Shown here: one piece after another, positions 40,768 to 44,704 of the stretch | Layout: each line of letters begins with the position of its first letter | Position numbering within the stretch: the stretch's first letter is position 1 | Origin: Cyanobium sp. FACHB-13342 | GTDB taxonomy: Bacteria > Cyanobacteriota > Cyanobacteriia > PCC-6307 > Cyanobiaceae | Direction: 5' to 3' | DNA length: 64,000 bases | NCBI RefSeq assembly: GCF_014697415.1 | Contig: NZ_JACJRT010000009.1 | Coordinates: 124,001 to 188,000 of the forward strand | Notes under the pieces: model-generated | What the model was told of the DNA's origin: nothing | The model's input: the letters and a program-made list of their open reading frames with translations, nothing else | Databases searched by the model: none | Program-made: the position numbers and the translations under genes

Positions 40768-41523
40768 ATGGCCCGCACCCTCATCGGCACTGTCCTCTGG
40801 CAGGAGCTGGGCTGGCAGCCCAGTCCTGGCCAGGAGCAGTTGCTGCTCGACCTGCAGGACCAACTGCGCCAGTGGAACGGCCGGGTCAACCTGACCCGCC
40901 TGGTGGAGGACGACGACTTCTGGATTGCCCAGGTGTTCGACAGCCTCTGGCCCCTGGTGCCCCTGCTGCAATCGGCCGCAGCCCAGGAGCCCCTGCGGCT
41001 GATCGACGTGGGCACGGGCGGGGGCTTCCCCGGCCTGGCGCTGGCAATCGCCTTCCCCCAGGCCCAGCTCACCCTGGTGGATTCGGTGGGTCGCAAGGTG
41101 GACGCGGTGCGGGCCATGGCCGAGGCCCTGGGGCTGGGGAAGCGGGTGAGCCTGCGCTGTGAACGGATCGAGCGCACCGGCCAGCAGCAGGCCTGCCGGG
41201 GCCAGTTCGACTGGGCCCTGGCGCGGGCCGTGGCCAGCGCGCCCGTGGTGGCGGAATATCTGGTGCCCCTGCTGCAACCCCAGGGCCGGGCCCTGCTGTA
41301 TCGCGGCCAGTGGTCGGCCTCCGACCAAGGGGATCTCGACGCCGCCCTGGCCCCCCTGAAGGCCGCAACCGAGCGCTGCCTGGCCCGGGAGCTGCCCGGT
41401 GGCCGGGGCGTCCGCCACGCCCTGGTGGTGCAGCCCCTGGCCCCCTGTCCCCGCACCTACCCCCGGGCCGTGGGGGTGCCGGCCAAGCAACCCCTGGGGG
41501 TCAGGAGGTCATCAGGCGATTGA
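40768..41523 (+). CDS. rsmG: 16S rRNA (guanine-527-N7)-methyltransferase RsmG
   Basis: The 251-residue protein has the GidB/RsmG layout: [17 protein letters not shown] upstream of SAM motif [17 protein letters not shown], then [14 protein letters not shown] and [11 protein letters not shown]. It methylates G527 of 16S rRNA. Its 3' end overlaps the convergent aldo/keto reductase gene by 23 bases. The last ~15 codons (after [13 protein letters not shown]) therefore also encode the end of the other protein. Confidence 0.95.
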
Positions 41524-42727
41524 CGGGCTGGCCGCCGAGCCGATCGCGCAGACGCCGCAGCAGTCCAGGGATGTGATCCACCCAGGGGCTGCCGGCCAAG
41601 GCCGCCCGCAGCTCGGCCTCGTTCACCGCATGGTCCAGCAGATCGGCGCTCTGCCCGGGGAACCAATGGCCGCCGCGCCCGAGCAAGCCGTAACGGGCCC
41701 GGGCAAAGCTCTCCAGATCCCAGGCCTCCAGCAGGTTGTGCAGCCAGAGCAGAACCTTCACATTGAGCTCCCCAGGCAGCTCCGACCACTCCGGCAGGCC
41801 CTGCTCCCAGCTGGCCAGCCAGGCCGGATCAAGGGCGTCCCGCCGGGCCTGCTCCAGCCTCGCCTGCACCGGCACCACCAGGGCCTGCGCCTGCTCCAGC
41901 CGGGCCACCGCCTCCAGGTGGAGGTCGAGGTCGTCGGGGTGGGCGGCCCCAACGCTGAGGGTGTGCACGGCGGGCGCTCCTGAACAGCCGGATTCCGCCA
42001 GGCAGAAGAGATCGTTGAACACAATCGGATGCAGGGGCGCACACAGCTCACGCAGCGGGGCCGAGGGGGTGTGCAGGTGGCCGCCCTTGTCGGTCGGGCT
42101 GATGACAAACACACCCAGGTCGTGGGCCCGGGCCAGCTCGAGGGCGGGACGGTTGTCCTGAAAAATGAAGTACCAATGCAAGTTGACGTAGTCGAAGGCA
42201 TCGCTGGCGATCGCCTCACAGATCAGGGGCAGGGGGGCGTGGGTGGAGAAGCCCACATGGCCAATCCGTCCCTCGGCCTGCCAGCGGCGCAACACGTCCC
42301 GGCAGCCACCCGGCCGCAGGCTCTGCTCCAGATGCTCGGGCAGGTTGAGGCCGTGGAGCGTCAGCAGATCCACCCGCGCCACCCCCAGCCGCTCGAAGCT
42401 GGTGGCGAGTTCCGCCTCGAAGACCGCCGGATCGGCCTGGGGCGGCACTTTGGTCTGCAGGATCCGCAGGGGATCGGGCACCTGGTCGAGCAGCCAGCCC
42501 AGCTGGCGCTCCGAGGTTCCGTAATGACGGGCCGTCTCAATGTGGTGGAGGCCCGCCGCAACCGCCTTCTCGAGGATGGCCCGCAGATTGGCCTGGCTGG
42601 CCGCGCTGATCTGGTCAGGCGGCAGGTCGGTCCAGCTGTGCTGAAAGCGCATGCAACCCAGGGAGAGCACCGGCATGGCCAGCTCGGTCCGTCCAAACCG
42701 CCGGGTGGGCAGTTGGGCCGATGGCAT
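41501..42727 (-). CDS. Aldo/keto reductase family protein
   Basis: The 408-residue protein has an AKR barrel (about 8-300): [27 protein letters not shown] with the catalytic Tyr, LQTKVPP with the Lys, and LLTLHGLN with the His. The usual catalytic Asp of the D-T-A motif is Glu here. The C-terminal ~100 residues form a helical extension as in AKR-ferredoxin-type proteins, but no cysteine cluster is seen; instead a separate ferredoxin gene lies directly upstream. The ATG overlaps the ferredoxin stop by one base, so a functional link is likely. Confidence 0.85.
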
Positions 42728-43122
42728 CAGCCCGCGTCCCGGCGGGGCAGGGTGCGCTTGAGCCGGGCCGGAGTGGGCACCCCGAGGGGCAAAATCTCTT
42801 GGCCAGCCAGCTGTTGCTCCAGCTCAGGCAACTGCTCATAGGGCACCCAGTGAATGCAATCCACCGGACAGGTGTCGATCGCCTCCTGGATCAAGGCCGT
42901 GGAGTCTCCGTCCTGCCGGATCGCCCGGGAACGGCCCCAGTCGGGCTCCACCACAAAGGTGTTGACGGCCACGTGGGCGCAATAGCGGCAGCCGATGCAG
43001 ACGGCCTCATCCACCCACACCGCTTTCTGACGCAGGGATCCACCCAGCAGCGGCTCCAGACCGGTGCGGGTGGACTCCGGTGCTTCCGCGATGGCGGTGA
43101 AAGCCAGGGAGGGATCGACCAT
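42727..43122 (-). CDS. 4Fe-4S ferredoxin-like protein
   Basis: The 131-residue protein has CIGCRYCAHVAVNTF and, about 40 residues later, EAIDTCPVDCIHWV. This gives C-x2-C-x2-C plus C-P, enough for one 4Fe-4S cluster. The sequence between, with GRSRAIRQDGDS, is typical of a cyanobacterial/plastid-type ferredoxin group found with Ycf35. It probably passes electrons to the coupled aldo/keto reductase or acts in a Ycf35-linked process; neither is shown here. Confidence 0.9.
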   Translation of the reverse strand: MVDPSLAFTAIAEAPESTRTGLEPLLGGSLRQKAVWVDEAVCIGCRYCAHVAVNTFVVEPDWGRSRAIRQDGDSTALIQEAIDTCPVDCIHWVPYEQLPELEQQLAGQEILPLGVPTPARLKRTLPRRDAG

Positions 43123-43142
43123 GGCGACGGACGTCAGGGGAC

Positions 43143-43532
43143 CTAGGCCCAGCGGGTCACCACCAATTCGATGCTGCCGTCCTGCTGCTGGGTTTGCTCA
43201 CACACCTGAAATCCCTCTTCCGTGGTCGCCGCCAGGATGCTGCGCAGGGCGTAGCGCTGGTTGAGCTGGGCCACAAAGCGCTCCACCGGCACCGGCTGGC
43301 TCCAAAGATCGAGGTCGGTGACGAGCTCATAACTGCCGGTGGCGGGGTTGAGGCGGAAGCCGATGTCGGCACCGTTGACCTGGGTCACCGCGAGCTGGGC
43401 CTCCAGGGTCTGGCCGCGGTAGCCGCGCACCTGCAGGGAACCCTCCCGGGGGGCATGGCCGAGGTCGCTCAGGGCCTCAAGCAAGGCCTGGCGATCACGC
43501 AGCTCGGTCTTGATGGTGCTGAAGTGGGACAT
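43143..43532 (-). CDS. ycf35: Ycf35 family protein (DUF1257)
   Basis: The 129-residue protein begins MSHFSTIKTELRDRQALLEAL, the clear Ycf35/DUF1257 signature. It continues with GYRGQTLEAQLAVTQ, GADIGFRLNP and ERFVAQLNQRYALRSILA. It is conserved in cyanobacteria and many plastid genomes, with no established function that I know of. It lies between a DUF2997 gene (20 bases upstream) and the 4Fe-4S ferredoxin gene (20 bases downstream). Confidence 0.93.
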   Translation of the reverse strand: MSHFSTIKTELRDRQALLEALSDLGHAPREGSLQVRGYRGQTLEAQLAVTQVNGADIGFRLNPATGSYELVTDLDLWSQPVPVERFVAQLNQRYALRSILAATTEEGFQVCEQTQQQDGSIELVVTRWA

Positions 43533-43552
43533 CGGTTCGGAATGCTCGGCGT

Positions 43553-43771
43553 TTACGGGAGCGGGACGGGATTGACCAGGGGCTGTCCAAGGGGCTGGAC
43601 CTGGCCTTGGACCTGGAACGCCTCAGCCGTGCTCTGGCGCTGCTGCACAGCACCGAGCCTGGCCTCGATTCGTTCGGTGAGCTGCTCACAACCGAGCCCC
43701 CGAACCCCTTCCACCAGCTCTTCCACCCGACCATCGGGCAGGATCCGAAATCGGATGGTCTGATGGTCCAT
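43553..43771 (-). CDS. DUF2997 family protein
   Basis: The 72-residue protein starts MDHQTIRFRILPDGRVEELVEGV and continues GLGCEQLTERIEARLG, matching the small DUF2997 family often encoded next to Ycf35. The C-terminal ~25 residues are Gln/Pro-rich. The function is unknown. It is the first gene of the DUF2997-ycf35-ferredoxin-reductase run on the minus strand. Confidence 0.85.
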   Translation of the reverse strand: MDHQTIRFRILPDGRVEELVEGVRGLGCEQLTERIEARLGAVQQRQSTAEAFQVQGQVQPLGQPLVNPVPLP

Positions 43772-43852: not shown

Positions 43853-44704
43853 TCAGCTGAGCAGGCCTTCATCCACCAGGGTTTGCAGCCGGTCGAGCAC
43901 CTCGGGTTGCTCGAGCTGCTCCAGGGCCAGTCGGGCCTCATCCCGCACGCCCGATTCCGCATCGTGAACCATGGCGTGCAGCAGGGCCTCGACCACGACC
44001 TGCTGGCGGGGCTCCACCAGATCGCCGTAGAGCCGCCCCAGGGCCCAAGCACTGTTGCTGCGCACCGCCGGCTCACTGTCGATGCGCAGGCTGAGCAGCA
44101 GCTGGGCCGCCGCCGGATCGGCCTTGGCGGGGCCGGTGCAGCCCGCTTCGGCCAGGGAACTGGCCGCCCAGAGCCGCACGGCGGCAATGTCCACCTGCAG
44201 GGAGCGGATCAGGGGGTTGAGCACCGGGGCTTCGGGATAGTTGCCCAGGCTCCAGGCCACCGCCTTGCGCACATAGCCGTTGTCATCGGAGCCCAGCAGG
44301 GACAGCAGGGGCTCCACCGCCAGGGGGCTGGGATTGCGACCCAGGGCATACACGGCACTCATCCGCAGGATCGGGCAACTGGCCTCCAGCAGGGGCAGCA
44401 GCAGCGGCAGGGCCCGGGGATCCCGGTGCTCACAGAAGATCCTCAGCCCCTGCATGCGCTGGTCATGGCTGCCGGCATCCGCCCCCAGCCGCAACAGCTG
44501 CAAACCGAGGTCGCACTCCGCCGCCACATCGGAAGCGCTGGGATCCTGGGTGTCCAGGTCATCGAGCGGATCGCCGAGCAGCTCCTGGGCCAGCTCCTGG
44601 GCCAGCACCTCGGGATCGAGGTAGAGCTCTTGAGGACTGTCGCCGAAAGGCCCGCTGGACGTCGGCTCGGGCTGCGCCGGTTCGGATTGCGGAGAAGGGC
44701 TCAC
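43853..44704 (-). CDS. HEAT-repeat protein (PBS lyase-like repeats)
   Basis: The 283-residue protein has an acidic, Ser/Pro-rich N-terminus (1-60) followed by about five HEAT-like repeats. The repeat pattern is visible at PILRMSAVYALGRNPSPLAVEPLLSLL, split over two helices, then YVRKAVAWSLGNYP, AVRLWAASSLAEAG, AVRSNSAWALGRL and GVRDEARLALEQL. Such repeats occur in phycobilin lyase subunits (CpcE-type) and IaiH-like proteins. Without a partner lyase gene nearby, a scaffold role is as likely as lyase activity. Confidence 0.85.
   Translation of the reverse strand: MSPSPQSEPAQPEPTSSGPFGDSPQELYLDPEVLAQELAQELLGDPLDDLDTQDPSASDVAAECDLGLQLLRLGADAGSHDQRMQGLRIFCEHRDPRALPLLLPLLEASCPILRMSAVYALGRNPSPLAVEPLLSLLGSDDNGYVRKAVAWSLGNYPEAPVLNPLIRSLQVDIAAVRLWAASSLAEAGCTGPAKADPAAAQLLLSLRIDSEPAVRSNSAWALGRLYGDLVEPRQQVVVEALLHAMVHDAESGVRDEARLALEQLEQPEVLDRLQTLVDEGLLS

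Follow-up and report, generated by a model that had tools for sequence, protein, structure and literature searches.

We examined a window of 64,000 nucleotides from Cyanobium sp. FACHB-13342 (C18:124001-188000, in a genome of 2.37 Mb and 18 contigs), by which we mean the whole stretch of DNA that was analyzed, and in particular a group of genes on its minus strand that includes ycf35. The first of these (43553..43771) encodes a DUF2997 protein of 72 amino acids (PF11211, 63.7 bits, cut-off 24.1). It is followed by ycf35 itself (43143..43532, 129 amino acids), which belongs to the DUF1257 family (PF06868, 121.8 bits, cut-off 22.2), and by the gene for a Fed7-type [4Fe-4S] ferredoxin (42727..43122, 131 amino acids; Fer4_13, 57 bits, cut-off 24.5). 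The last is an aldo/keto reductase of 408 amino acids (41501..42727; PF00248, 61.1 bits, cut-off 24, with the match spanning residues 21-215). The three small genes are separated by gaps of 20 bases each, and the stop of fed7 and the start of the reductase share one base (TGATG). An earlier note on this DNA (the original prediction) had described the same arrangement, and the minus-strand coordinates agree with it. A consensus scan of 41.3-44.9 kb gave no promoter-like sites (0.1 expected) and one terminator-like site (1.2 expected).

The group duf2997-ycf35-fed7 is already known: the original prediction had missed its publication as the conserved "cluster g" (PMC4284462). The window shares with the published cluster the three families, their order on one strand, and the five-cysteine pattern of Fed7. 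In particular, the cysteines of the window ferredoxin (42, 45, 48, and 85, plus a fifth at 89) have the same spacing as C53, C56, C59, C96, and C100 of Synechocystis Fed7 (CxxCxxC...CP and a fifth cysteine four residues on). In contrast to cluster g, the window has the reductase following fed7 with the one-base overlap. According to the available text of the same paper, fed7 belongs to a three-gene operon; a fed7 mutant grows normally but copes less well with low iron and with oxidative, metal, and salt stress; and the reported partners of Fed7 are FtrC, glutaredoxin 2, and a DnaJ protein (PMC4284462). Also, ssl1263, fed7, and ycf35 are reported together as SigD-dependent under standard conditions (PMC8875361).

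Our phylum sample comprised 146 genomes, of which 64 are from the window's class (these seem to be phototrophs) and 82 are from outside it. DUF1257 was found in 74 of the 146 genomes, DUF2997 in 87, and the ferredoxin in 65. All three were present in every one of the 64 class genomes. There, the ferredoxin match always lay on the same strand as the DUF1257 match and at most 458 bases from it (64/64), and DUF2997 lay within 1.6 kb in 62 genomes and within 2.6 kb in the other two. Outside the class, DUF2997 occurred in 23 genomes, DUF1257 in 10, and Fed7 as one marginal match (G035, E = 9.9e-4). Independent distribution of the families, which the original prediction would have counted against a link, was thus partly seen for Fed7, outside the class. 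Within the window's family, we read 35 loci from 34 genomes, one of them twice (the best-scoring 30 of the 111 genomes with a match, plus five further loci), and DUF2997, Ycf35, and Fed7 were together in all 35. Because the three genes form a conserved unit and the ferredoxin and Ycf35 co-occur strictly in the class, the gene context does give clues to the role of Ycf35, as had been suggested.

The reductase, which had been linked to this group, behaves differently. It follows fed7 in 32 of the 35 family loci (31 of the 34 genomes), and in the other three loci, all from one genus, it was not found within the roughly 1 kb that was read. Across the class, 61 of the 64 genomes have an orthologue-level reductase (E = 4e-95 or better, a cut chosen in this analysis) and the other three have a more distant match only. 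A reductase lies within 3 kb of fed7 in just 7 of the 64 class genomes (the six family genomes and, at a distance of 813 bases, G036), so a general link does not hold up. Given how seldom it is near fed7 (7 genomes, against 61 that have an orthologue-level reductase), we rejected the reductase as part of the unit: it is a local neighbor in the window's family, not part of the core, and has no shown role there.

DUF1257, DUF2997, and Ycf46-type ATPases

The association of DUF1257 and DUF2997 with AAA+ ATPases of the Ycf46 type appears to be new. The literature that we found on DUF1257, DUF2997, ycf35, or ycf46, as far as its text was available, proposes no ATPase link, but most subscription papers lay outside the search, so unpublished status is not established. 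The accessible description of cluster g also leaves an ATPase partner unmentioned (PMC4284462).

We considered an ATPase match to be strong if E ≤ 1e-80, a threshold that was set once the E-values were seen to separate into two groups (1e-83 or better and 1e-31 or worse). All 87 of the genomes with DUF2997 carry a strong match. Among the matches listed, strong matches are present in 64/64 class genomes and in 29/82 others. Outside the class, again among the matches listed, the ATPase is present in 23/23 genomes with DUF2997 versus 6/59 without it (P = 4e-15, Fisher test; this value overstates the case because the genomes are related and are not independent draws) and in 9/10 genomes with DUF1257 versus 20/72 without it (P = 3e-4).

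DUF1257 has paralogues besides Ycf35, and these lie near ATPase genes. A second paralogue is on the same strand as its Ycf46-type ATPase and at most 1.5 kb from it in 57 of the 57 genomes with that ATPase, among the matches listed. Seven class genomes (six of the window's family and G095) are without this ATPase among the matches listed, although a neighbor missing from the linkage table is no proof of absence. Another DUF1257 paralogue adjoins a second ATPase together with DUF2997 (L049, L050). The ATPase of the 57 genomes is presumably of the type of Synechocystis Slr0374, which is encoded in the stress operon slr0373-slr0374-slr0376 and described as a Ycf46-type ATPase (PMC7496141). As in that operon, two of our loci (L047, L048) hold a small gene, the ATPase, and the DUF1257 paralogue in a row, and by this layout slr0376 would be the DUF1257 gene. 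In contrast to the window cluster, the operon as described has no DUF2997 and no ferredoxin beside it, and its ATPase is a paralogue with a P-loop cysteine that was not found in the six family genomes of the phylum sample. The P-loop of the 57-genome paralogue reads GVPGCGKS in 12 of 12 sequences, and its cysteine probably corresponds to Cys269 of Slr0374, which is reported to be more reduced in the light (91.6 vs. 78.3%, PMC13214033). The name Ycf46 has been used in print for Slr0374; judging from operon layout, Slr0374 resembles the 57-genome paralogue and not the unlinked type of Ycf46 that is found in the window's genome (see below).

Complete trios of ATPase, DUF1257, and DUF2997 genes were found in 15 of the 16 plasmid and non-cyanophage loci that we read. 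The hosts are plasmids of Bacillus, Paenibacillus, Planktothrix, Pseudanabaena, Trichormus, Geminocystis, and Nostoc and the phages HJ05 and PA_L9, and the gene order varies, with the ATPase first, last, or separated from its partners by other genes. (We read 13 of the 24 plasmid records with DUF1257, 1 of 14 from a further search, and 2 of 15 and 2 of 13 phage records.) The profiles A1 and A2 and the ATPase profile were partly built from the same loci that were searched, and the matches in L051, L053, L054, and L056-L058 are partly by construction; the records' own annotation for these loci independently names an AAA ATPase, DUF1257, and DUF2997. Other searches gave little: when genome contigs were scanned with a single DUF1257 protein, the one locus recovered was the query itself; a plasmid DUF1257 had no relative in a viral scan; and searches of phages found nothing with the P. 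urinalis DUF1257 and 13 weak records with the P. polymyxa DUF1257. A radical-SAM gene adjoins DUF2997 on a Paenibacillus plasmid. Two Firmicutes trios have "4Fe-4S" proteins nearby that we considered as ferredoxins and rejected, since both match radical-SAM families. We also rejected a known anti-phage system: PADLOC gave no match for the scanned DUF1257 and DUF2997 proteins, and matches of the ATPases to the IetA and TRIP13 models are confined to the AAA part.

Many non-photosynthetic genomes at first seemed to have the ATPase and DUF2997 and no DUF1257 match. If the trio is real, then a hidden DUF1257 should be found near the other two. Indeed, the 16 loci read, from 15 genomes of a single non-photosynthetic family, all have a gene from the same additional family within about 2 kb of the ATPase. 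Profiles for its shorter form (A5) and its longer form (A6) were built from the genes of 13 of these loci, and the remaining three loci match A5 or A6 at 1e-8 or better. Compared to the DUF1257 profile, A5 gave a probability of 91.8% (E = 7e-7; the DUF2997 control gave 0.3%), and A6 gave a weak match in its C-terminal part (23.7%, E = 9e-4). Three of the 16 loci also match the DUF1257 profile directly (L195, L381, and L391; E = 1e-6 to 9e-4). As judged by profile similarity, the prediction held, and a putative third member is recovered where it was previously unrecognised. Next to the ATPase in 14 of these 16 loci is a gene with the radical-SAM motif CxxxCxxC; the one such gene whose family was checked (in L174) is NrdG-like, at 125.1 bits just below the cut-off of 126.1. 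In another non-photosynthetic family, the genome G016 has the ATPase, DUF1257, and DUF2997 together. The small non-photosynthetic genomes of L381-L393 frequently have the order radical-SAM-like gene, Ycf46-type ATPase, DUF1257-like gene, and DUF2997, and their DUF1257-like protein often reaches a larger size, about 420 amino acids.

A possible ATPase partner for Ycf35

The window's genome encodes a single Ycf46, on another contig than the cluster (C16:110498-111970, L150). All three families of the Ycf46-DUF1257-DUF2997 system are therefore present in this genome, with the ATPase gene away from the pair. All 23 near-complete genomes of the window's family have Ycf46, as do 38 of 41 family genomes overall. 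We built trees from 85 DUF1257 and 62 ATPase sequences (leaving out further Ycf35 and family Ycf46 rows, the duplicates L155, L156, and L196, and fragments under 70 amino acids). In the ATPase tree, the window's Ycf46 groups with ATPases whose operons hold DUF1257 and DUF2997 (FastTree local support of 0.999 and 0.983) and is apart from the 57-genome paralogue. The main split in the DUF1257 tree agrees with the ATPase tree (0.925). The best match of the AAA part of the window's Ycf46 to a PDB sequence is to the D2 domain of p97 (residues 224-447, E = 6e-58). In contrast to p97/Cdc48, Ycf46 has one AAA domain and an N-terminal part of its own of about 220 residues; it is not a p97/Cdc48 proper (TIGR01243, 110 bits vs. 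a cut-off of 803), and any likeness is in the way of working only. Ycf46 (L150; also L157, L165, and L167) lies near yidC and a DUF177-like gene (identified by eye), and these neighbors might point to membrane-protein biogenesis.

The predicted structures of the two small proteins are quite different. The AlphaFold2 model of Ycf35 is a compact alpha/beta domain (mean predicted local distance difference test score, or pLDDT, of 90.4). It had no match in the PDB at E ≤ 0.001 by Foldseek (best 0.14). In VIA-align, its best Z score was 6.4 (KA1 domains), with the Bcs1 AAA proteins at about 4.9, all below the level that the tool treats as telling, and in BFVD it matched one viral protein (E = 3e-8). 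DUF2997 is modeled as beta-beta-alpha with a loose tail (mean pLDDT of 59, with about 77-85 in the hairpin region). Its Cys28 is at the start of the predicted helix, and this cysteine is present in 70 of 70 aligned rows (68 distinct sequences) and in 57 of 57 sequences in the alignment of viral proteins with the window's protein. By sequence, the PDB had no convincing match to either DUF1257 (best E = 0.11) or DUF2997 (best E = 0.25, a copper-ATPase domain).

We propose, with a probability of roughly 0.6, that DUF2997 and Ycf35 serve a Ycf46 remodeling ATPase as adaptor or regulator subunits, with redox coupling via Fed7. The components of this proposal differ in strength. A functional partnership of the DUF1257, DUF2997, and Ycf46-type ATPase families is very likely. 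The observation is genetic only, in that the three families stay together, and from it we infer that their products may form a complex. The unlinked Ycf46 is probably the partner of Ycf35, by analogy to the linked ATPases, as no ATPase gene was found in the stretches read around Ycf35 itself; remodeling is a similarly plausible activity for the ATPase; and redox gating through Fed7 is a tentative suggestion. In such a three-part machine, a Ycf46-type AAA+ ATPase would be the motor and DUF2997 and Ycf35 would be its small subunits. In phototrophs, the motor gene would have moved away, leaving the pair next to fed7. The ATPase would remodel or unfold client proteins, and Ycf35, as a stable domain, might dock on the motor or on the client as an adaptor. 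DUF2997, with its invariant cysteine at the helix start and its flexible tail, might report or gate the redox state, and Fed7, fed by ferredoxin-thioredoxin reductase, could set the DUF2997 cysteine or the client. Remodeling would thereby follow light and oxidative stress. There are hints of such a mechanism in the reported light response of Cys269 of Slr0374, in the reported contact of Fed7 with DnaJ, and in a plasmid trio beside GrpE and Hsp70. A fuller version, which we consider rather unlikely as a whole, is that a Cdc48-like remodeling ATPase tends photosynthetic or iron-sulphur proteins during light and oxidative stress, that Ycf35 and DUF2997 serve as its redox-gated adaptors and a 4Fe-4S protein as its redox input, and that marine cyanophages carry an adaptor pair of their own that redirects the host's Ycf46 when they infect.

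Several observations weigh against this proposal. We read 72 stretches of 2.6 to 13 kb that surround Ycf35 and found such an ATPase gene in none of them, and because of this the link between Ycf35 and Ycf46 rests on analogy. In the DUF1257 tree, the inner node that joins Ycf35 to the types with DUF2997 has weak support (0.447). A distance-profile test did not discriminate: the fit of Ycf35 to Ycf46 (rho = 0.76) is barely better than that to another group (0.75), and the fit of the second paralogue to Ycf46 (0.93) is above that to its own linked ATPase (0.64). Six genomes carry the ATPase without DUF2997. Among the matches listed, there is no strong ATPase match for G096 despite its DUF1257, and the three genes are at separate places in several non-photosynthetic genomes. 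The Treponema DUF1257, the one incomplete locus of the 16 plasmid and phage loci, has neither partner in the 12 kb read. As radical-SAM proteins are not ferredoxins, the recurrence of 4Fe-4S proteins near the ATPases may mean little. Finally, the available text on Fed7 attributes its stress phenotypes to a pathway of thioredoxin reductase and glutaredoxin (PMC4284462).

The original prediction can be read as a rival model in which Fed7 is a dedicated electron donor, for a reaction that depends on Ycf35 or for the aldo/keto reductase, with no ATPase involved. The strict linkage of Fed7 to DUF1257 in 64/64 class genomes fits this model, as do the one-base overlap of the reductase with fed7 and its position after fed7 in 31 of the 34 family genomes. 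We nevertheless consider it quite improbable. Of the 61 class genomes in which the reductase has an orthologue-level match, 54 do not have it within 3 kb of fed7; DUF1257 and DUF2997 can be found in the absence of Fed7, where they often adjoin an ATPase gene; and aldo/keto-fold reductases use NAD(P)H. We are equally skeptical that ancestry, transfer, or mobile elements alone have kept DUF1257, DUF2997, and the ATPase together as old genes, without any physical partnership. It is true that the loci are not independent, as one family gives 16 of the non-photosynthetic loci and many of the others are borne by plasmids or phages, but the trio families stay together though their gene order differs, the third member was found where it was previously unrecognised, and the second DUF1257 paralogue is linked to its ATPase in 57 of 57 genomes (among the matches listed).

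An unlikely but more serious possibility is that DUF1257 and DUF2997 are partners of Ycf46-type ATPases in general and that Ycf35 left this role in phototrophs, where it would work with Fed7 in a stress pathway of ferredoxin-thioredoxin reductase, glutaredoxin, and DnaJ. The absence of an ATPase gene from the 72 stretches around Ycf35 and the weak placement of Ycf35 in the DUF1257 tree are consistent with this, and FtrC and DnaJ are reported as Fed7 partners (PMC4284462). However, Ycf46 is kept in 23/23 near-complete family genomes and groups with the ATPases of the trios, and ycf35 and ycf46 are reported to be jointly absent from several lineages of red algal plastids (PMC5940233). We therefore prefer a Ycf46 machine with Ycf35 and DUF2997 as its subunits. 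Both ycf35 and ycf46 are reported to be retained in the plastid genomes of many red-lineage algae, and ycf35 is described as having an unknown function (PMC11019260, citing work on Ycf46). The tie to an ATPase would turn this orphan gene into a testable complex and would connect it with the published work on Fed7, redox, and DnaJ.

Viral copies and other neighbors

DUF2997 and DUF1257 are also paired in viral contigs. In IMG/VR, the DUF1257 protein of P-SSM2 has relatives in 139 contigs, the window's Ycf35 in 351, and the P-SSM7 protein in 46 (the sets overlap), of which we kept the best 80, the best 80, and all 46. DUF2997 was on the same strand as DUF1257 in 197 of the 204 loci that were read (203 of them viral), and the two genes overlap in 193. 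Of the seven misses, five start no more than 58 bases into the available sequence, L140 is not viral, and L300 is a real miss. From their likeness to P-SSM2 and P-SSM7, these contigs are probably from marine cyanophages. No Ycf46 match was present in the 11 cyanophage-like records that were searched (the whole records of P-SSM2 and P-SSM7 and nine viral fragments), whereas Aeromonas and Pseudomonas phages do carry one. If our proposal for Ycf35 is right, then cyanophages bring the adaptor pair and use the host's motor, and the ATPase tie suggests a reason why they carry the pair at all. The pair loci are L060-L139 and L226-L348; in P-SSM2 the pair is at NC_006883.2 147491-148070, and in both P-SSM2 and P-SSM7 it is annotated as hypothetical proteins.

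Some DUF1257 genes on other mobile elements have unusual surroundings. In Treponema succinifaciens pTRESU01 (L052), DUF1257 lies within a phage tail and baseplate module. In Pseudanabaena pPg_01 (L057 3864-9808), the trio is beside GrpE, Hsp70, and an AAA_21 ATPase, and this last protein matches the PADLOC model HEC-02B (E = 3e-148). In L031 (4602-6275, G097:C71), a DUF1257 domain of the second-paralogue type forms the C-terminal end of a long protein that resembles part of a NACHT-type NTPase (by eye).

The window's genome also has a second, divergent DUF1257 (G000:C17:199799-200050, L156, 39 bits), with no match to the ATPase or to DUF2997 within its 3 kb stretch; weak DUF1257 copies resembling it are present in other genomes of the window's family. 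Lastly, 81 bases upstream of the DUF2997 gene in the window is a gene for a HEAT-repeat protein (43853..44704, minus strand, 283 amino acids; PF13646, 115 bits). A similar HEAT-type gene is upstream of DUF2997 in five other loci of the window's family that were inspected by eye, so it is a neighbor within this family and lies outside the core of the cluster.

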